Shown: piece by piece, positions 1,100-21,541 of the stretch | Position numbering within the stretch: the first letter of the stretch is position 1 | Layout: each line of letters begins with the position of its first letter | Assembly (NCBI GenBank): GCA_015222055.1 | Contig: JADFUR010000101.1 | Location: forward strand, 1 to 32,573 | DNA length: 32,573 bases | Reading direction: 5' to 3' | Source: Bacteroidota bacterium | GTDB taxonomy: Bacteria > Bacteroidota > Bacteroidia > Bacteroidales > B39-G9 | Position numbers and translations under genes: made by a program | Notes under the pieces: model-generated | What the model was told of the DNA's origin: nothing | The model's input: the letters and a program-made list of their open reading frames with translations, nothing else | Database searches by the model: none

Positions 1100-1425
1100 C
1101 TGCCACCAACACGTAATATAAAAAATTGGACAGAAAATGTTGACTATGAGCTAATTAATAATAAATAAATTCAAAGATTGGAGTTTAAAAAAGCCCAAAA
1201 TTTCATATTTTTATCGTCAGAATGTCTAAAAACTACTTTAGGTTAGTAGTTTTGTTAATATTTAAAAATTACAAAACGCTAAGATACAGGAATTTATAAA
1301 TTAGGCGGTTGTATTAAACGTGTAAAAAGAATTGGTTTTTAGACAGACTGCTGTTAGCGTTAATTTAAAGAAAGACCAAGCAAGAGTAGTATTAGTATAT
1401 AAAAAACGACTAAAGAATTAAACAA
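1100..1425. other. Gene-less stretch with attC-like 3' half-site
   Basis: No ORF is credible here. Near the 3' end, GTTAGCG at 1353-1359, preceded by CTGCT, resembles the 3' (R') end of an integron attC or cassette start. It matches CGCTAAT at 2157-2163 after the next gene. No complementary L'' arm is seen at the 5' end of the stretch, so it is at best a half-site. Confidence 0.3.
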
Positions 1426-4702: not shown

Positions 4703-4854
4703 ATAATATTCAATTCCTGTTTTTTAACATTTATAAAAAAACGTACAATGGTTATTTTTTTATAAATTTACTTTTTTATTAATAGTTATTTAAAATTTCA
4801 AAAGCCCATATAGTAAAATAAGACACACTAGTGTTTTTTATTTAATTGTTGTGC
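4703..4854 (+). promoter_or_regulatory. Promoter/attI-like module copy B
   Basis: Features in order: ATATTCAATT.CTG, TTTTTTAACATTT, a CGTACAATG block, a -7 box TAAATTTAC (4763-4771), an A-rich leader, the half-degenerate palindrome AAGACACACTAGTGTTTTTT (4820-4839), and a GTTGTGC box (4848-4854) where integron cassettes would begin. It drives the fucosidase gene. Together with the terminator at 4553 it accounts for the 468-bp gap after 4469. Confidence 0.6.
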
Positions 4855-4937
4855 CGAATGCAAGTAGATACAGGGGTTATTTATAAAGATAGACAATTTT
4901 TACTAATTTGATTGTTCAACATTATTAATTTAAAGAA

Positions 4938-6311
4938 ATGAAAAAATATTTTTTGCTTTGTATAACTTGTTTTGTTATTTGTAGTTCTAATGCTCAGAAC
5001 TTTCCAAACAAAACATATCAAACCAATTATGAAAACATTATGGAACGCACCGAATGGTGGCAGCAAGCACGTTTCGGGATGTTCATACATTTTGGAGCAT
5101 ATGCAGTGCCCGCAAGTGGCGAGTGGTATAAGTCAAATAAAAAAATGACTACAGAGGAATATCAGAAATATGTAGATGCTTTTAACCCTTATTTATATGA
5201 TGCAAAAGAGTGGGCAAAATTAGCCAAGGAAGCAGGTATGAAATACGCTGTGCTCACCGCCAAGCACCATGACGGTTATTGCCTGTTCGATAGTAAATTA
5301 ACCGATTATAAAATTACGACCAATATGCCCGGGCGTGACTTGGTTAGAGAGTATGTTGATGCTTTTCGTGCTGAAGGTTTAAAAGTTGGCTTGTATTACT
5401 CAGTTATCGACTGGCATCATGAGGATTATCCGAATGTTGGTAACCACCCTCAAAGAGAAGATGAGGAATATAAAAAATTAAAATTCGATTGGGATAATTA
5501 TTTGAAATACATGCACGGCCAGATTGAAGAACTTGTCACAAACTATGGCAAAATAGACATCATGTGGTTCGATTATTCATTTGGAGAATATAAAGGGGAA
5601 AAATGGAAAGCTCGCGAATTAATTGAAATGGTTCGTAAAAATCAGCCTGATATTATATTGAATAACAGGCTCGCAGGAGATGGAGGTAGTAGTATTTTTG
5701 ATGCAGAATACCCACTTGGCGATTTCAATACACCTGAACAACAACTACCCGAAGCACCTTTAAAAGACGAATACGGTAATCTTATTCCTTGGGAAACCTG
5801 CCTGACCCTTAACAATTCATGGGGCTATAATGCCAACGATAACGATTGGAAAAGTGCAGAGCTTGTTGTTCATTCTTTGGTGAATTGTGTGAGTAAAGGT
5901 GGCAATCTCCTTCTTAATGTTGGTCCTAACGCCAAAGGACTTATTCCTGAACCTTCGGTCAAAATTTTGAAAGAAGTTGGCAAATGGATGTGTAAAAATG
6001 GAGAAAGTATTTATGATTGCGGAATTGCAGAATTGCCCAAAGCAGATTTTGGACTTTATACGCAAAACGATAATATGTTGTATGCCCATTGGATGTATCC
6101 TAAAGTTGGAGGAATAAACATAAAGGGATATGCAGAAAAAACGGAACAAGTGATTATGTTATTTGATGGATCAGTAGCACCCACATTTACTTCATGGTGG
6201 GGTAATAGTGATAAGAACAATTTTTTCATTAATGTAAAGCCTTGTGCTCAGTGTGCATATCCATTGCCCGATGAAATAAATACGGTTTTTAGGTTGAAAC
6301 TAAAGAAATAA
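4938..6311 (+). CDS. Alpha-L-fucosidase, glycoside hydrolase family 29
   Basis: This enzyme hydrolyses terminal alpha-L-fucose from glycans by a retaining mechanism. A signal peptide (residues 1-20, ending SSNAQ) is followed by the GH29 barrel: RFGMFIHFGAYAVPASGEWY, then WAKLAKEAGMKYAVLTAKHHDGY, then GLKVGLYYSVIDWH. The nucleophile is probably Asp212 in IDIMWFDYSFG. WGYN and GGNLLLNVGPN are further family signatures. At 457 aa it covers the catalytic domain and a short C-terminal beta domain. No T9SS tail or lipobox is seen, so it is probably periplasmic. It is a single-gene unit behind promoter copy B. No complete attC follows; a possible half-site lies at 6372. Confidence 0.95.
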   Translation: MKKYFLLCITCFVICSSNAQNFPNKTYQTNYENIMERTEWWQQARFGMFIHFGAYAVPASGEWYKSNKKMTTEEYQKYVDAFNPYLYDAKEWAKLAKEAGMKYAVLTAKHHDGYCLFDSKLTDYKITTNMPGRDLVREYVDAFRAEGLKVGLYYSVIDWHHEDYPNVGNHPQREDEEYKKLKFDWDNYLKYMHGQIEELVTNYGKIDIMWFDYSFGEYKGEKWKARELIEMVRKNQPDIILNNRLAGDGGSSIFDAEYPLGDFNTPEQQLPEAPLKDEYGNLIPWETCLTLNNSWGYNANDNDWKSAELVVHSLVNCVSKGGNLLLNVGPNAKGLIPEPSVKILKEVGKWMCKNGESIYDCGIAELPKADFGLYTQNDNMLYAHWMYPKVGGINIKGYAEKTEQVIMLFDGSVAPTFTSWWGNSDKNNFFINVKPCAQCAYPLPDEINTVFRLKLKK

Positions 6312-6758: not shown

Positions 6759-6905
6759 TCAATTTGTGTTTTTTAACATTTAATAAGAATCGCATAACTG
6801 TTATTTTTTTTATAAGTTTACTTTTTTATTAATAGTTGTTTAAAATTACAAAAGCACATATAAGGAAAATAAGACACACTGGTGTGTCTTATTTAGGTGT
6901 TAGGC
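6759..6905 (+). promoter_or_regulatory. Promoter/attI-like module copy C (most complete)
   Basis: It contains TTTTTTAACATTT, the ATCGCATAACTG block, a -7 box TAAGTTTAC (6813-6821), an A-rich leader, a perfect palindrome AAGACACACTGGTGTGTCTT (6871-6890), then ATTTAGGT and a perfect GTTRRRY core GTTAGGC (6899-6905). That core is the exact reverse complement of GCCTAAC at 9027-9033, the R'' box of the attC that closes this cassette. Confidence 0.7.
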
Positions 6906-6909
6906 TTAA

Positions 6910-7791
6910 TTGCTGGAGACCACGGAGAATTCAATAACTATAAAAGTGAAAAACCTATTAAATAAACCATACGACCTATTAGAAAATATCAAATTCAGAT
7001 ACATATATGTTTTTGGTGGTATCAGTTTTGCATTATTGTTCCTTTGGGTTTTTGAACCTTTTGGACTATATAATCTTGGTTCTCATTTGAAAATTATTAC
7101 AATAAGTTTACATATTGGTTGTGGATTGTTTTTATTAATTACGCAATTCTTCTTATTGCAACCTTTGATAATAAAAAAATATACTGTTGCTATAACAATT
7201 ATATGGATTGCATTATCATTTTTTATTTTAGGCTTTTCTGGATTTATTATAAATGCTTATCTTTTTAATAGTGGAGTTTTCTACTTTGGTCATTTTTTTT
7301 TATTTCAAGGAATAATTTTATCAATAGGAATAATCTTAATTTCATTGACAGTTTTAATTCACTATAATTATCTTTTAAGAAAAAGATTAACAGTCTCTAA
7401 TCATATAAATAAGCAGATTAAAGAAAAAGCAATAGAAAAATTTGAAAACAAAATAATTGTTTTAGAATCAGAAACCAGGAAAGACTATCTTGAACTTTTT
7501 TTAGACAATCTGTTATATATTACTTCAGCAGATAACTATGTTGATATTTACTATATGGAAAATCAAACTTTGAACCATAAACTTATAAGAAATTCCTTAA
7601 CTAAAATTTGTAATAAGTATTCAGATTTACCTGAGATATTCAGGTGTCATAAAAGTTATATTGTAAATAAAAGAAAAATTGAGTCAATAAGTGGTAATAC
7701 TGCAGGGTATAAAATTAAACTCAGCAATTATAAAGAATACATTCCAGTATCTCGTGAATTAAATAGCTCTATTAAGACATTAACGTCATAG
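6910..7791 (+). CDS. Membrane-bound LytTR-family transcriptional regulator
   Basis: The N-terminal half has four predicted membrane helices (about residues 31-50, 60-80, 92-115 and 125-150). A linker with basic and Glu-rich residues leads to a LytTR DNA-binding domain (about 190-290): LLYITSADNYVDIYY, then IRNSLTKI, then FRCHKSYIVNKRKIESI, then YKEYIPVSREL. There is no receiver domain, so it probably senses a membrane or lipophilic signal directly. The open start is TTG at 6910, only 5 nt after the cassette core box; GTG at 6946 is an alternative. The gene shares a cassette-like unit with the following Ntn-hydrolase, and phased CCATTT repeats between them are a candidate binding site. Confidence 0.85.
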   Translation: MLETTENSITIKVKNLLNKPYDLLENIKFRYIYVFGGISFALLFLWVFEPFGLYNLGSHLKIITISLHIGCGLFLLITQFFLLQPLIIKKYTVAITIIWIALSFFILGFSGFIINAYLFNSGVFYFGHFFLFQGIILSIGIILISLTVLIHYNYLLRKRLTVSNHINKQIKEKAIEKFENKIIVLESETRKDYLELFLDNLLYITSADNYVDIYYMENQTLNHKLIRNSLTKICNKYSDLPEIFRCHKSYIVNKRKIESISGNTAGYKIKLSNYKEYIPVSRELNSSIKTLTS

Positions 7792-7799
7792 ATTTTTTT

Positions 7800-7867
7800 C
7801 CATTTATACCATTTCCTTTCCATTCAACCCATTTGTTTGTACAACAAATAATTCATTTATATTCTTG
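7800..7867 (+). promoter_or_regulatory. Phased direct repeats and promoter of the Ntn-hydrolase gene
   Basis: Four direct repeats CCATTT/C start at 7800, 7809, 7820 and 7829, so alternate copies are 20 bp apart, on the same face of the helix. Immediately downstream are TTTG (7836-7839) and TATATTCTTG (7858-7867), with 18 nt between, a fair Bacteroidota promoter. The position suggests a LytTR-type operator. Confidence 0.5.
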
Positions 7868-7896
7868 CAATAGCTTTTAACTTAAAACATTTAAAA

Positions 7897-9018
7897 ATGA
7901 AAACAAGAATCATATTTATTGGATACTTTGTATTTGTACTTTTAATTAGTTCATTGAAAACGTATTCATGTACAACATTTTGCTTGGCAGACAACAATCA
8001 AGTTGTTTATGGTCGTAATTTTGACTTTGAAATAAGTAGCGGTTTTATAGTCAACAACAGAAAAAACTTGATGAAATATGCTCTATTATCAACAGAAGAA
8101 AATATTTTACAATGGACATCAAGGTATGGAAGTATAACGTTTAATCAGGTTGGAATGGAATTTCCATATGGTGGAATGAATGAAAAAGGTCTTGTGATAG
8201 CTCAAATGTATCTTTCCCGAACAAGATATCCTAATATGGATAACAGAAAAGCAATATCGTGTTTACAGTGGATACAATATCAGTTAGATGTTTCAGCAAC
8301 AGTTAATGATGTTCTAAAGAGTGATTCTACAATTCGAATTTCGAATGAAATTCCTGTAGGAATTCATTTTCTCGTTAGCGATAAATCTGGAAAATCAGTA
8401 ACTATTGAATTTATCAATGGAAAAATGGTTTATCGCTTTGATAATAATCTTCCAATTCCATTATTATCCAATAACACTTATGATGAATCGTTTGATTATT
8501 TAAAGCAATTTGATGGTTTTGGTGGCAAAGAAACAATTAAATGGACCAATATAAACGATTTTGAATGGACTGATAATAATACACTTAATACAAATAAACT
8601 TTTTGCAACTGCTGCAAAAAATATGATTAAGAAAAATGATTCAATCACGCTTATTGATAAAGCTTTTGGAGTATTAGAATCCGTTACAATAAAAAATCAC
8701 ACTCAATGGAGTATTGTTTTTGATATAACAAATATGAAAATTTATTTCAAAAATAATCAGCATTGTGAAATAGTCTCTCTGGATTTTAGAAATTTTATTT
8801 TTAATTCAAACGCTGATGTGAAAATGTTAGATATTCAGTCGGCAAAAGCTGATAAAATTAACGAACAATTCATGTTGTATTCGACAGACAGAAATAGAGA
8901 ATATACACTAAAGGCAACAATTCCATTGATAGAATCAGGGTTTATTCCAGAGATACCATTAGAAGCCATAGAGATACAAGTACAATATCCAGAAACCTTT
9001 CAAGTAGTTACCCAATAA
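7897..9018 (+). CDS. Secreted linear amide C-N hydrolase (choloylglycine hydrolase-like Ntn family)
   Basis: The signal peptide (residues 1-24) would be cut just before Cys25, exposing the N-terminal nucleophile: CTTFCLADNNQVVYGRNFDF is the start of the mature Ntn-hydrolase fold, with the family Arg and Asp in GRNFDF. GGMNEKGLVIAQMYL and the later Asn in LSNNTYDES fit the family. Known substrates include conjugated bile acids, penicillin V and N-acyl amides; the substrate cannot be read from sequence. It is probably periplasmic. It lies 105 bp after the LytTR gene with its own promoter-like site and is followed within 10 nt by attC1, so regulator and enzyme appear to travel together. Confidence 0.85.
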   Translation: MKTRIIFIGYFVFVLLISSLKTYSCTTFCLADNNQVVYGRNFDFEISSGFIVNNRKNLMKYALLSTEENILQWTSRYGSITFNQVGMEFPYGGMNEKGLVIAQMYLSRTRYPNMDNRKAISCLQWIQYQLDVSATVNDVLKSDSTIRISNEIPVGIHFLVSDKSGKSVTIEFINGKMVYRFDNNLPIPLLSNNTYDESFDYLKQFDGFGGKETIKWTNINDFEWTDNNTLNTNKLFATAAKNMIKKNDSITLIDKAFGVLESVTIKNHTQWSIVFDITNMKIYFKNNQHCEIVSLDFRNFIFNSNADVKMLDIQSAKADKINEQFMLYSTDRNREYTLKATIPLIESGFIPEIPLEAIEIQVQYPETFQVVTQ

Positions 9019-9026
9019 GCAACAAA

Positions 9027-9160
9027 GCCTAACATTGGGTCATAAAACATGCGGGTTATAGCGGTTTTCTAACATTTTTTGTTATCTTTAACATTCGGTA
9101 ACGGGGGATACTTAAACACGGCAAAATCCCGCACAGTTTCATACCCAAAAACCGTTCAAT
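9027..9160 (+). other. attC-like recombination site 1
   Basis: R'' is GCCTAAC (9027-9033). L'' is 9037-9055 (GGGTCATAAAACATGCGGG). L' is 9128-9146 (CCCGCACAGTTTCATACCC). R' is GTTCAAT (9154-9160). L'' and L' pair over most of their length with a few unpaired bases, as attC extrahelical bases would require. R'' is the exact complement of GTTAGGC at 6899. R' departs from GTTRRRY at one position. The length of 134 bp is within the attC range. Confidence 0.65.
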
Positions 9161-9254: not shown

Positions 9255-9410
9255 GATATTTAACATATTATATATTATTTCACTTATAATAAAAATTGCA
9301 CTTCTGTTTTTTTTTTCATAAATTTACTTACGAATTAGCTTGTGATATAAGTTAAACAAATACATATATAGGATATAAGACACAGTGGTGGGTCTTATTG
9401 AGAGATTCGT
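9255..9410 (+). promoter_or_regulatory. Promoter module copy D
   Basis: It contains a TTGCACTTCTG block (TTG at 9296-9298), a -7 box TAAATTTAC (9319-9327, 20 nt after TTG), the leader ACATATATAGGATATAAGA, and the imperfect palindrome AAGACACAGTGGTGGGTCTT (9377-9396). ATTCGTA stands where copies C and F have the GTTRRRY box, so the recombination core appears lost. It drives the T9SS gene at 9486. Confidence 0.6.
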
Positions 9411-18929: not shown

Positions 18930-19059
18930 CTATGTTCTTTAACACTTTCTAAAAATAGCACAACTGTTTATTTTTTTATAAATTTACTTTTTAATTAACT
19001 TAAACTAACACATATAGAGGATATAAGATTCACTAGTGTGTCTTATTGAGGTGTTGTGT
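18930..19059 (+). promoter_or_regulatory. Promoter/attI-like module copy F
   Basis: It contains TTCTTTAACACTTT, the block TAGCACAACTG, a -7 box TAAATTTAC (18979-18987), the leader CACATATAGAGGATATAAG, and a palindrome AAGATTCACTAGTGTGTCTT (19025-19044). ATTGAGGT and the core GTTGTGT (19053-19059) follow. The core, extended to GTTGTGTG, is the exact complement of CACACAAC at 20592-20599, the R'' end of attC2. Confidence 0.7.
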
Positions 19060-19108
19060 GTCATAAATCTAATACCCTGCAAAATAATAAATTAAAAAAA
19101 TAGAAAAA

Positions 19109-20581
19109 ATGAAAAAAATAAAAATCGGATTAATCTTGATTATGGCAACTATTTTTTTTAATAGTTACGCTCAATTAAATAATTTTAATTTATCAGATTA
19201 CAAATTACCTGATTTGGAAAGAAGATCTTTAGAAACGAACTTTAATTTGTCGGGACAAAATGATTACTATAAAATAAATCCTTATGGACAAGACAAGACT
19301 GGGGAAAATAGTTACTATGGTAATATTTATATTAACTATAAGCATTACCTAAATAGTGCCAAATTGCAACAAGAGACAAATCTTGGTTTAAATTTTTCAT
19401 CTAACTTTTATAATAGAAAAGAGGACAAAGAATTGGTTAGTAAAAGCAGTAACATAAATCCCCAAATTTATTTACAAAGAAATAATCGAAAATATTTCAA
19501 CACAAATTATTTCTTTGAGACAGATGTATTTTTAAATTACCAGTATGGTAGAAATTATACATATTCAAAATACAGCGATGGTTCCGAGAATAAAGAAAAC
19601 TTACAAACGCATAGAATGTTGGCTTATATACCATTGAAAATTGGTCTTGGCCGAGTAGAACCAGTTCAAGATGCAAGACAAGCAATCTATATATTAGATG
19701 AACTATATAAAGCAAATAGAATTTCATCAGTCAAGTCTGACGAAAAAATTATTGAGTTTGCTGAGTTTATTTCTAAACTAAAAAACAAAAGATTCTTTGA
19801 TTCTCGATTGAAAAAAATAGCTGAAATAGAAGCAATAGATTCTTTTCTTGTTGCAAAAAATTATTTAAAGAAATCCGATGCAAGGTATTTTACAACAATT
19901 GAAGATTTTTGGGACTATGGAAATAGTCCAATGAGAAATAGTGGTACAAGATTCTCATTTGCAATTTTACCAGGGTATTATATCTATAACAATAATTTGG
20001 AAGATAAAATATATTCTAGTTCTTACAAATATAATATAAATGCTTTATTATTTGATGGTGGTATAGAAATCAAACACGAAAAACCTCTTAATTTATATTG
20101 GCAAAATTCAATTAATTTAAATGCTTATGCAGGATTAATTGAAGGTAACTTAAATAATAAAACAAATTCAATTGAGAAAGATATTAGAATTCCTAATATC
20201 CAATTAGGTTTCAATCAATCTATAGGATTTTACCCAAATACCCGAACAGATATAAGCTTTAGATACTCATTTCAATATGTACAGCTTTTTGACAAGGCTG
20301 ATGTGCAAAATGAAATTATTGGTGCAGGTGGCAAAGGTGCAAAAGCTGAGACAGATTTATTAATTAATTATTATATATCACCAAAATTTAGATTAAATAT
20401 TACTTCTTCTTTTTATTATATCTGGCAAGATTCAGAAATGACAATTAACTATGATAATACTGTCGGGAGTAGTTGTATGTTATATAATTATACGTCTAAT
20501 ACAAATGGATATGTTGATTACATAAAAAGAAATAGTCTTGCCAATAATTTTAGAATTAGTTTGATTTATAGCGTATTTTAG
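19109..20581 (+). CDS. Putative outer-membrane beta-barrel protein (490 aa)
   Basis: I do not recognise the family. A signal peptide (residues 1-21, ending NSYAQ) is followed by alternating polar/aromatic strands (INYKHYLNSAKL, LGLNFSSNFY, FLNYQYGRNYTY, INLNAYAGL, IQLGFNQSIGFYP, DISFRYSFQYV, RLNITSSFYYIW), as in an outer-membrane barrel. A charged, helical central insert (about 190-270) carries EFAEFISKLKNKRFFDSRLKK and may form a periplasmic or extracellular lobe. The chain ends IYSVF, a Phe-terminated barrel signal. It is the first gene behind promoter copy F and is closed by attC2, so it fits a cassette passenger. Confidence 0.65.
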   Translation: MKKIKIGLILIMATIFFNSYAQLNNFNLSDYKLPDLERRSLETNFNLSGQNDYYKINPYGQDKTGENSYYGNIYINYKHYLNSAKLQQETNLGLNFSSNFYNRKEDKELVSKSSNINPQIYLQRNNRKYFNTNYFFETDVFLNYQYGRNYTYSKYSDGSENKENLQTHRMLAYIPLKIGLGRVEPVQDARQAIYILDELYKANRISSVKSDEKIIEFAEFISKLKNKRFFDSRLKKIAEIEAIDSFLVAKNYLKKSDARYFTTIEDFWDYGNSPMRNSGTRFSFAILPGYYIYNNNLEDKIYSSSYKYNINALLFDGGIEIKHEKPLNLYWQNSINLNAYAGLIEGNLNNKTNSIEKDIRIPNIQLGFNQSIGFYPNTRTDISFRYSFQYVQLFDKADVQNEIIGAGGKGAKAETDLLINYYISPKFRLNITSSFYYIWQDSEMTINYDNTVGSSCMLYNYTSNTNGYVDYIKRNSLANNFRISLIYSVF

Positions 20582-20592
20582 CACTTTACGCC

Positions 20593-20720
20593 ACACAACA
20601 AGCAATATAGCAAAAAGCGGTAAAGCACTAATTTGAGGCGAATTAGCTCGTTCAAAATTCATTTTAGTTTGATAGAAAGTCGTTTGCAATCCGCTTCATG
20701 CCATATTGCAAACGTTGAAC
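20593..20720 (+). other. attC-like recombination site 2 (strongest)
   Basis: R'' is ACACAAC (20593-20599). L'' is GCAATATAGCAAAAAGCGG (20602-20620). L' is CCGCTTCATGCCATATTGC (20691-20709), pairing with L'' at 16 of 19 positions. R' is GTTGAAC (20714-20720), a perfect GTTRRRY. R'' matches the core box at 19053 exactly by complement. The length of 128 bp and the few mismatched stem positions fit an attC. Confidence 0.75.
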
Positions 20721-20757
20721 ACAAGTAATCGAGAGTATTAATTAACGTTTTTAGGAC

Positions 20758-21399
20758 ATGAAAAGAATTACTTTTTTAATCGTTTTTTGTTTTTTAGGAA
20801 TAGCTATTATTAAAGCTCAAGAAAATCAGTTGCAAATAATTGCTGGACTTAAACTGAATAATATTTATAAGCCACCAAGTGAGGGTAATCGTTTTTTAAT
20901 GGGATACTCAATTGGATTGTCATATAATAAATATCTAAACAAACAGATGTTTTTATCATCAGGATTATTCCTAGACGAAAAAGGTAGCGGAACAGAAATT
21001 GATATTTACACAGAGACAATGGATTTTAAAGTAAGACTTTTTTATCTGGATTTACCCATTAAATATAACTATTTGATTACTATCGGTAACCAAAAATTAT
21101 TGATTGGATTGGGGCCATATATTGGTTGTGGACTTTGGGGTAAGATATCAACTGAATTCATGGGCCAAATTGATACATATAACATCAAATGGGGCAATAA
21201 TGGAGGAGATTATGATGGAACACCTAATTATAAAAGGCTTGACTTTGGATTTGCAGGAAGTGTTTCTTATCAGGTGAAAAGGATTTCTCTTGGATTGAAT
21301 TACCAAATTGGTGTTGTTGATATGGTTCCAGAAGGATTAGGTGGTGGAGAACGAAATAATACATTTGGATTTTGTTTAGGATATTTAATTTTGGAATAA
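20758..21399 (+). CDS. Outer-membrane beta-barrel protein (213 aa)
   Basis: A signal peptide (residues 1-21, ending IIKAQ) precedes an eight-strand-type barrel: QLQIIAGLKLNNIY, FLMGYSIGLSYNKYL, MFLSSGLFLDEKG, VRLFYLDLPIKYNY, KLLIGLGPYIGCGLWG, RLDFGFAGSVSYQV, ISLGLNYQIGV. It resembles the PorT/OmpA-like 'outer membrane protein beta-barrel domain' group. No catalytic motif is visible. It begins 38 nt after the R' box of attC2 and ends 11 nt before R'' of attC3, so it fills a compact 0.8-kb cassette-like unit. Confidence 0.75.
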   Translation: MKRITFLIVFCFLGIAIIKAQENQLQIIAGLKLNNIYKPPSEGNRFLMGYSIGLSYNKYLNKQMFLSSGLFLDEKGSGTEIDIYTETMDFKVRLFYLDLPIKYNYLITIGNQKLLIGLGPYIGCGLWGKISTEFMGQIDTYNIKWGNNGGDYDGTPNYKRLDFGFAGSVSYQVKRISLGLNYQIGVVDMVPEGLGGGERNNTFGFCLGYLILE

Positions 21400-21410
21400 A
21401 CAATACCAAT

Positions 21411-21541
21411 GCTTAACACGTAACAAATTCAAGCTGGGGTAAGTTGCTTTTTGAAAGCAAACAGTTATATTTAAGTTTGTAACGGTTGGATAGGTTTATG
21501 GCTACGTAATACCAGCCAGTATTTATAACCCAACGTCAATC
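21411..21541 (+). other. attC-like recombination site 3
   Basis: R'' is GCTTAAC (21411-21417). L'' is TAACAAATTCAAGCTGG (21421-21437). L' is CCAGCCAGTATTTATAA (21512-21528), pairing at 12 of 17 positions. R' is GTCAATC (21535-21541), one change from GTTRRRY. The overall length of 131 bp matches the other two. It is weaker than attC2 but in the expected place. Confidence 0.55.

Follow-up and report, generated by a model that had tools for sequence, protein, structure and literature searches.

What kind of element carries the two genes lying between positions 6899 and 9154 of a contig from a member of the Bacteroidales (Bacteroidota bacterium, contig JADFUR010000101.1), and what connects the membrane LytTR regulator encoded by the first with the secreted hydrolase encoded by the second? 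The whole 32,573-nucleotide stretch, here called the window, is contig C72 of its own genome (G000; 3.75 Mb, 118 contigs, rated 98.56% complete), which was compared with a set of 99 relatives that includes G000 itself. Taken jointly, an integron-like system (a XerA-type recombinase, an attI-like site and attC-ended cassettes) and a hydrolase switched by the LytTR protein are probably the best explanation. The unit, to judge by its two ends, is a gene cassette of such a system, and the platform resembles an integron that uses another recombinase. The argument rests on what is seen in the sequence itself: boundaries, covarying folds, complementarity between the R' and R'' boxes, and one cassette start standing behind the attI-like site and behind two attCs.

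The unit begins with GTTAGGC, runs through the LytTR gene and the hydrolase gene, and closes in a folded attC (9027-9160). A preliminary description of this DNA had called it a cassette with two genes, and both calls stand: the R'' box GCCTAAC is complementary to the cassette start at 6899-6905 in 7 of 7 positions, and two open reading frames (ORFs) fill the interior (6910-7791, LytTR; 7897-9018, CBAH). That description did not mention a 130-nucleotide leader repeat with a palindrome, which stops at the cassette start. Seven other matches of 9027-9160 were found in G000 at E<=0.01, the shortest of 28 nucleotides, and the ends of most are still AAC and GTT or differ little from them. By itself GTTAGGC is uninformative (four in the window, 1.56 expected, with 8 of 100 shuffles reaching four). 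Counts of GTTRRRY were dropped as cassette evidence, being no commoner than chance (57 observed, 70 expected), and single-strand folding energy was weak as proof of an attC, so that covariation was used instead.

The regulator ORF matches Pfam PF04397 with 54 bits (cut-off 22.6), and, from hydropathy alone, its hydrophobic segments fall within residues 17-145; the LytTR domain and these predicted membrane segments together assign the protein to the membrane LytTR class. Its start had been put at TTG 6910, five nucleotides after the core box, a proposal weakened by the homologue in the relative G057: the alignment begins at window residue 13, and because the homologue itself begins near the residue aligned there, GTG 6946 is the more likely start. 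The description of the second product as a secreted Ntn amide hydrolase is supported by a match to Pfam CBAH (PF02275; 60 bits, cut-off 20.4) and by a hydrophobic signal-like segment followed by Cys25, the nucleophile predicted from sequence, features shared with the choloylglycine/penicillin V acylase family. Its matches in the PDB are choloylglycine and bile salt hydrolases (best E 7e-17); it differs from bile salt hydrolases in reaching only 42.8 bits with the equivalog model NF038245, whose cut-off is 350 bits.

Between the genes lie a pair of direct repeats and a promoter-like site, called with the Bacteroidota promoter consensus. Two Bacteroides examples of such promoters are given in PMC6193735. 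The best intergenic direct repeat has a period of exactly 20 in the window, in G057 (L061) and in G087 (L033), values reached by 1, 44 and 4 of 500 shuffles, respectively. G057 also has a matching promoter geometry, TTTG-N20-TAATATTG, and in both the window and G057 the box comes right after the repeats. Of the claim that the hydrolase has its own promoter, what stands is a promoter-like TTTG-N20-TATTCTTG at 7836-7867, a motif read from the DNA letters only. The membrane LytTR protein would probably bind the two repeats spaced 20 bp apart upstream of this promoter and switch on the secreted hydrolase upon a membrane or cell-surface signal, and the hydrolase would cleave an N-acyl amide outside the cytoplasm.

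Control of the hydrolase by the regulator is plausible. Neighbouring LytTR and hydrolase genes recur in G057 (52% and 63% identity, respectively) and in G087 (31% and 33%), so that the pair is present in three families, each time with period-20 repeats before the hydrolase gene, which supports the earlier placing of a regulator beside its probable target. The rival reading, in which the LytTR protein regulates other genes or only itself and the hydrolase is neighbouring cargo, seems to us unlikely, though not strikingly so. Hydrolase matches occur in 20 of the 99 relatives (E<=0.001) and, across the phylum, in 10 of 395 genomes (E<=1e-30), own genome included in both counts, and a LytTR neighbour was present at only 2 of the 17 other loci tested among those fetched, none being detected at the remaining 15. 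In G029 the hydrolase alone makes up a one-gene cassette (L032 1450-2697; start GTTGTGTGCT, R'' AGCCCACAAC) between two attCs of 29.2 and 78.3 bits. Two further points weigh against the regulatory link, namely that the repeat in L061 is weak by the shuffling just given, and that the repeats have a period of 20 where the Bacteroides examples in the available part of PMC6193735 have 22. Conservation of the pair, repeats included, across three families speaks against the cargo reading.

Whether the pair travels as a fixed two-gene unit is a separate matter. In G057 the order is an attC ending in GTTAGCAACAATGC (72.7 bits, truncated where the contig ends), an insertion sequence, and the LytTR-hydrolase pair, whose downstream end lies off the contig. 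The insertion sequence, at about 1680-2970 of L061 between the cassette start and the LytTR gene, carries HTH_Tnp_1 and rve transposase ORFs. The pair in G087 is without an attC at E<=0.01 in the 3.8 kb seen, which, like the solitary hydrolase cassette of G029, argues against a fixed unit, and the attC model gave no match at E<=0.01 at the other hydrolase loci scanned (L031, L033, L215-L223).

The attC of the cassette belongs to a family whose stem can be read from compensating changes. We aligned 17 of 27 candidate sites, chosen by an AAC-GTT length of 117-125 and visible arms (dropped were L057, L064 (two), L079, L095, L130, L132, L148, L151 and L168); this choice favours paired arms, and slid alignments serve as the guard. 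The alignment gives one long stem with bulges in which 13 of 14 pairs change on both sides, with 86.9% of cells paired compared to 57.9% in shuffles, and a covariation score of 0.694 compared to 0.190, a value that none of 500 shuffles reached and that the slid controls stay well below (<=0.165). G-U pairs are few, as expected for DNA hairpins. The covariance model (R1), with training sites from at least four of the 99 genomes (G000, G007, G029, G090), was run on the window with filters off and finds its two training sites there together with two new ones (21411-21541 and 1104-1222). Window positions 19053-21541 form a second cassette array with two attCs.

Complementarity between cassette start and R'' is complete (7/7) in 18 of 19 cassettes, compared to 14 of 342 mismatched pairs. 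The 19 come from eight loci, each an array or a single cassette, of which the window supplies two; the arrays were picked because attCs had been detected in them. In Oceanihabitans sediminis four attCs, all on the same strand, come after the recombinase gene, and each of the four consecutive cassettes has a start 7/7 complementary to its own R''. Two of these cassettes hold overlapping ORF pairs (L129 6487-7006 and 7684-8402), ParD/ParE-like in one and SnoaL-like with TfoX-N-like in the other. That a two-gene, regulated cassette is unusual, since cassettes carry one promoterless gene, is an earlier judgement that these two of four cassettes weaken, as does the fact that many cassettes of the window's genome sit behind their own leader copy.

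The recombinase that we connect with these sites is a 379-residue tyrosine recombinase encoded elsewhere in G000 (C26:40749-41888), with one palindrome directly 3' of its gene and a contig end about 80 nucleotides into the next cassette. It passes the XerA model NF040815 (227.8 bits, cut-off 220), which describes itself as 'site-specific tyrosine recombinase/integron integrase', and does not pass the integron-integrase model TIGR02249 (197.6 bits, cut-off 265). Its alignment to IntI4 falls into two pieces, the spacing of the catalytic Arg and His, counted by hand, is 89 residues compared to 132 in IntI4 and 91 in XerA (4a8e), and the IntI-specific insertion of about 43 residues is missing in all 14 aligned family members. 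The predicted structure (predicted local distance difference test 81.8, predicted TM-score 0.52) ranks XerA first and IntI4 second at TM-scores of about 0.4-0.5, and so supports this placement weakly. Residues 1-100 (L073 4750-5049) form an extra alpha/beta N-terminal stretch in the predicted model, present also in most aligned homologues.

Named genomes, all Bacteroidota, contain homologues at 30 loci, and homologues are present in 39 of the 99 relatives, own genome included (E<=1e-45, the threshold for presence). An inverted repeat of at least 8 nucleotides with GTT within 16 nucleotides lies on the 3' side at 24 of the 35 homologue loci that have at least 700 nucleotides there, compared to 6.25 in shuffles; with the loop limited to 8 or fewer, the figures are 10 and 1.4. 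An exact 9-nucleotide R'' follows downstream in nine of those 24 loci, where permutation gives a mean of 1.5%. This rule replaced an unconstrained search for GTT and R'', which was noisy (18 of 35, 22% permuted), and a first set of cassette starts chosen by eye (13 of 15) does not enter the tests. By position and pattern, the site next to the recombinase gene is attI-like. The cassette start GTTAGCGGTCAGG, identical over at least 82 nucleotides, stands behind it (C26:41964-, L073) and behind two different attCs, at the ends of C59 (L093/L096) and C31 (L110), which are unrelated to each other.

The system would then consist of the XerA-type tyrosine recombinase, the attI-like site 3' of its gene (an inverted repeat, a few nucleotides, GTT) and cassettes ending in attCs, the recombinase presumably opening the bond between G and TT and joining a folded single-stranded attC to attI in the manner of IntI. 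The distribution of its parts is consistent with this. Using the attC model, for which counts per genome are lower bounds (at most 34 candidates per genome scored), we found attCs in 66 of the 99 relatives, own included. They occur in 35 of 39 genomes with the recombinase compared to 31 of 60 without (p=7e-5), and ten or more occur in 20 of 39 compared to 7 of 60 (p=2.3e-5), in hand counts that ignore kinship. One relative, G088, gave 15 attC hits and no XerA-type recombinase at E<=1e-45.

It is improbable that the cassettes are ordinary ones, belonging to a canonical integron whose IntI the assembly lacks (a cluster of attC sites lacking an integron-integrase, CALIN), even though several of the 118 contigs stop just behind platform copies and canonical IntI genes do exist in G012 (C50:52308-53159) and G088 (C95:2689-3195): these two are the only relatives among the 99 with an IntI above the cut-off, set against attCs in 66, the nearly complete own genome has none, and in named genomes it is the XerA-type gene that is followed by an attI-like site and cassettes. 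Marginally less credible again is that the 379-residue recombinase is a bystander and that host XerC/XerD move the cassettes. XerC/D-like genes are present in G000 (C41, C12) and attCs also occur without a close recombinase, as just counted; the attI-like pattern 3' of the homologues and the recombinase remnants speak against it. C-terminal remnants of the gene occur at another eight loci, and four of these, all on C113, stand immediately in front of platform copies.

What precedes the cassette of the window is a copy of the platform end, and such copies are dispersed through G000. The leader at 6769-6898 has 62 matches in its own genome at E<=0.01, counting self and reverse palindrome matches, and its palindrome recurs at 41 places with three or fewer mismatches (reversed control, 0). 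Among 43 sites in the fetched stretches (five or fewer mismatches), GTT follows the palindrome after exactly 5 nucleotides in 38, the orientation being chosen partly by GTT so that each site had two chances. For comparing copy ends we kept 39 of the 43 sites, dropping those with no GTT or a short flank, compared up to 150 nucleotides past GTT, and excluded L103, L105 and L113 for doubtful orientation, here and in the box count below. Of 538 pairwise matches, 346 end between -2 and +6 nucleotides from GTT (157 exactly at it) and 83 stop before that zone. The complement of the cassette start is found downstream, with at most one mismatch, in 6 of 34 platform copies (0.7% by permutation). A promoter-like TANNTTTG box, a candidate for the promoter of an array, most often 34 nucleotides before the palindrome, occurs in 28 of 40 related leader copies compared to 6.5 in shuffles, the copies not being independent. 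Dozens of copies of the sequence 3' of the recombinase gene (palindrome, GTT and, mostly, a promoter-like box) are spread over G000, so that the LytTR gene sits behind a leader of its own. That these repeats are merely a miniature inverted-repeat transposable element (MITE) or transposon family resembling cassettes by chance, as many dispersed palindromic repeats might suggest, is most improbable, being contradicted by the covarying attC stems, the complementarity in 18 of 19 cassettes and the identical starts behind different upstream sites.

Several observations nevertheless weigh against an integron-like system of the kind we favour. Besides the 31 genomes with attCs and no close recombinase, 4 of the 39 recombinase-bearing genomes gave no attCs. 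The folding energy of nine attCs ranges from z = -3.04 to +0.31, with the window site at -1.31. In the copy comparison 109 of the 538 matches extend more than 6 nucleotides beyond GTT, and the TANNTTTG box is absent from the window's leader and from window-type leaders. Finally, R'' is found within two mismatches in only 13 of 34 platform copies of G000 (10% by permutation), and therefore many cassettes of this genome must have decayed, be truncated at contig ends, or differ from our description.

The fetched stretches contain 11 blocks whose beginning resembles (G)TTGARCNAAACCAAAG. Two of them stand behind attCs, at L079 behind one that the model detected and on C113 behind one recognized by eye, and four are followed by a palindrome at a distance of no more than 1.5 kb. 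These blocks suggest that platform ends may move as gene-less units. The pattern ATAAGACACAN{2,6}TGTGTCTT has 18 matches in G000, one in each of two genomes of the same genus (88% and 66% complete) and none in four others. We tentatively propose, at somewhat less than even chances, that Bacteroidota hold a widespread parallel integron lineage lacking the IntI-specific domain, and that in the lineage of the window the platform end (promoter and attI-like site, with or without a recombinase remnant) moves without genes, bounded by GTT on both sides, giving private promoters and scattered capture sites. Another cassette start, GTTATGTGCAATGG, stands behind leader copies at the ends of three contigs (C4, C81, C110). 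In the window itself, no attC was detected by the model at E<=5 behind 4720-6311, which comprises a leader copy and an alpha-L-fucosidase gene. The coordinates of all features are collected in Table 1.

Table 1. Features of the window, in order of position
Feature	Position	Strand	Basis
Decayed attC behind ORF 359-1099	1104-1222	+	36.7 bits, E 3.5e-6; not in training set
Leader copy before fucosidase gene; palindrome 4817-4842	4720-4844	+	86% identical to 6769-6898
Leader repeat, ends at cassette boundary	6769-6898	+	Related to sequence 3' of recombinase gene
Palindrome, perfect 12-bp arms, 5 nucleotides before GTT; attI-like site	6868-6893	.	Genome palindrome search
R' core box GTTAGGC, cassette 5' end	6899-6905	+	7/7 complementary to R'' at 9027; putative crossover between G and TT
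LytTR regulator, hydrophobic N-terminal half, 281 residues	6946-7791	+	Pfam LytTR; frame open from TTG 6910; start by G057 homology
Two 18-nucleotide direct repeats, period 20; candidate LytTR operator	7797-7834	+	15/18 identical; 1/500 shuffles as good
Candidate hydrolase promoter TTTG-N20-TATTCTTG	7836-7867	+	Motif match
Secreted linear amide C-N (choloylglycine-type) Ntn hydrolase	7897-9018	+	Pfam CBAH; PDB matches; Cys25 after signal-like segment
attC of LytTR-hydrolase cassette, R'' GCCTAAC ... GTT	9027-9160	+	92.4 bits with model R1 (in training set); covariation
Next leader copy; palindrome 9374-9399, ATT replaces GTT	9275-9402	+	72% identical to 6769-6896
Leader copy opening second cassette array, GTT at 19053	18935-19052	+	Own-genome repeat matches
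attC, first cassette of second array	20593-20720	+	88.8 bits (in training set); R'/R'' 7/7
attC, second cassette of second array	21411-21541	+	43.2 bits, E 1.5e-7; not in training set; R'/R'' 5/7

The system shares with integrons an attI-like site by the recombinase gene, attC hairpins with R boxes and bulges, R'/R'' complementarity, arrays on one strand, cassettes shared between sites, and, in one Oceanihabitans cassette, ParD/ParE cargo, a kind known from Vibrio integrons. It differs in its XerA-type recombinase without the IntI-specific insertion, in the position of the site 3' of the gene, and in the multiplication of the platform end in G000. According to the available part of PMC9668308, 'typical' Spirochaetota IntIs are generally in reverse orientation, and spirochaete (Treponema) integrons are comparable to the present system in this respect; the recombinases are, however, counted as IntIs in that paper, whereas the one here lacks the additional domain. 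The promoter-bearing gene-less cassettes of Vibrio superintegrons (PMC11014356, in the part available) are similar in spreading promoters among cassettes, so that expression does not rely on a single cassette promoter (Pc), and differ in that here an attI-like site, in some cases together with a recombinase remnant, forms part of the promoter-like unit. Membrane LytTR proteins with direct repeats of period 22 before Bacteroides promoters are known from the available part of PMC6193735. Compared with these Bacteroides operons, which resemble LytTR regulatory systems (LRS), the window has the transmembrane LytTR protein and the direct repeats upstream of a Bacteroides-type promoter in common; it departs from them in the Ntn hydrolase neighbour, in the different period, and in that no separate membrane inhibitor protein was found in the cassette, which holds only the two genes.

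Earlier lists of integrons already include Bacteroidota (PMC8618304 and PMC2426708, as far as the available parts go), and the part available of a large survey gives for Bacteroidetes at first only In0, and then one complete integron, in Salinibacter ruber (PMC9024848). The accessible text of PMC8138268 describes the IntI insertion as essential for integron function, though incompletely conserved in a subgroup. In the open-access literature we found no report of this recombinase-attC system, a scope outside which most subscription papers and all bioRxiv preprints lie.

If this recombinase family does move cassettes, the capture of cassette genes would be common in Bacteroidota, and it would have been missed because searches require the IntI domain; the family would also offer a direct test of whether recombination of folded single-stranded sites depends on the IntI-specific insertion. 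The cassette of the window holds a regulator together with its likely target, and therefore a regulated trait may move whole, as a single piece.

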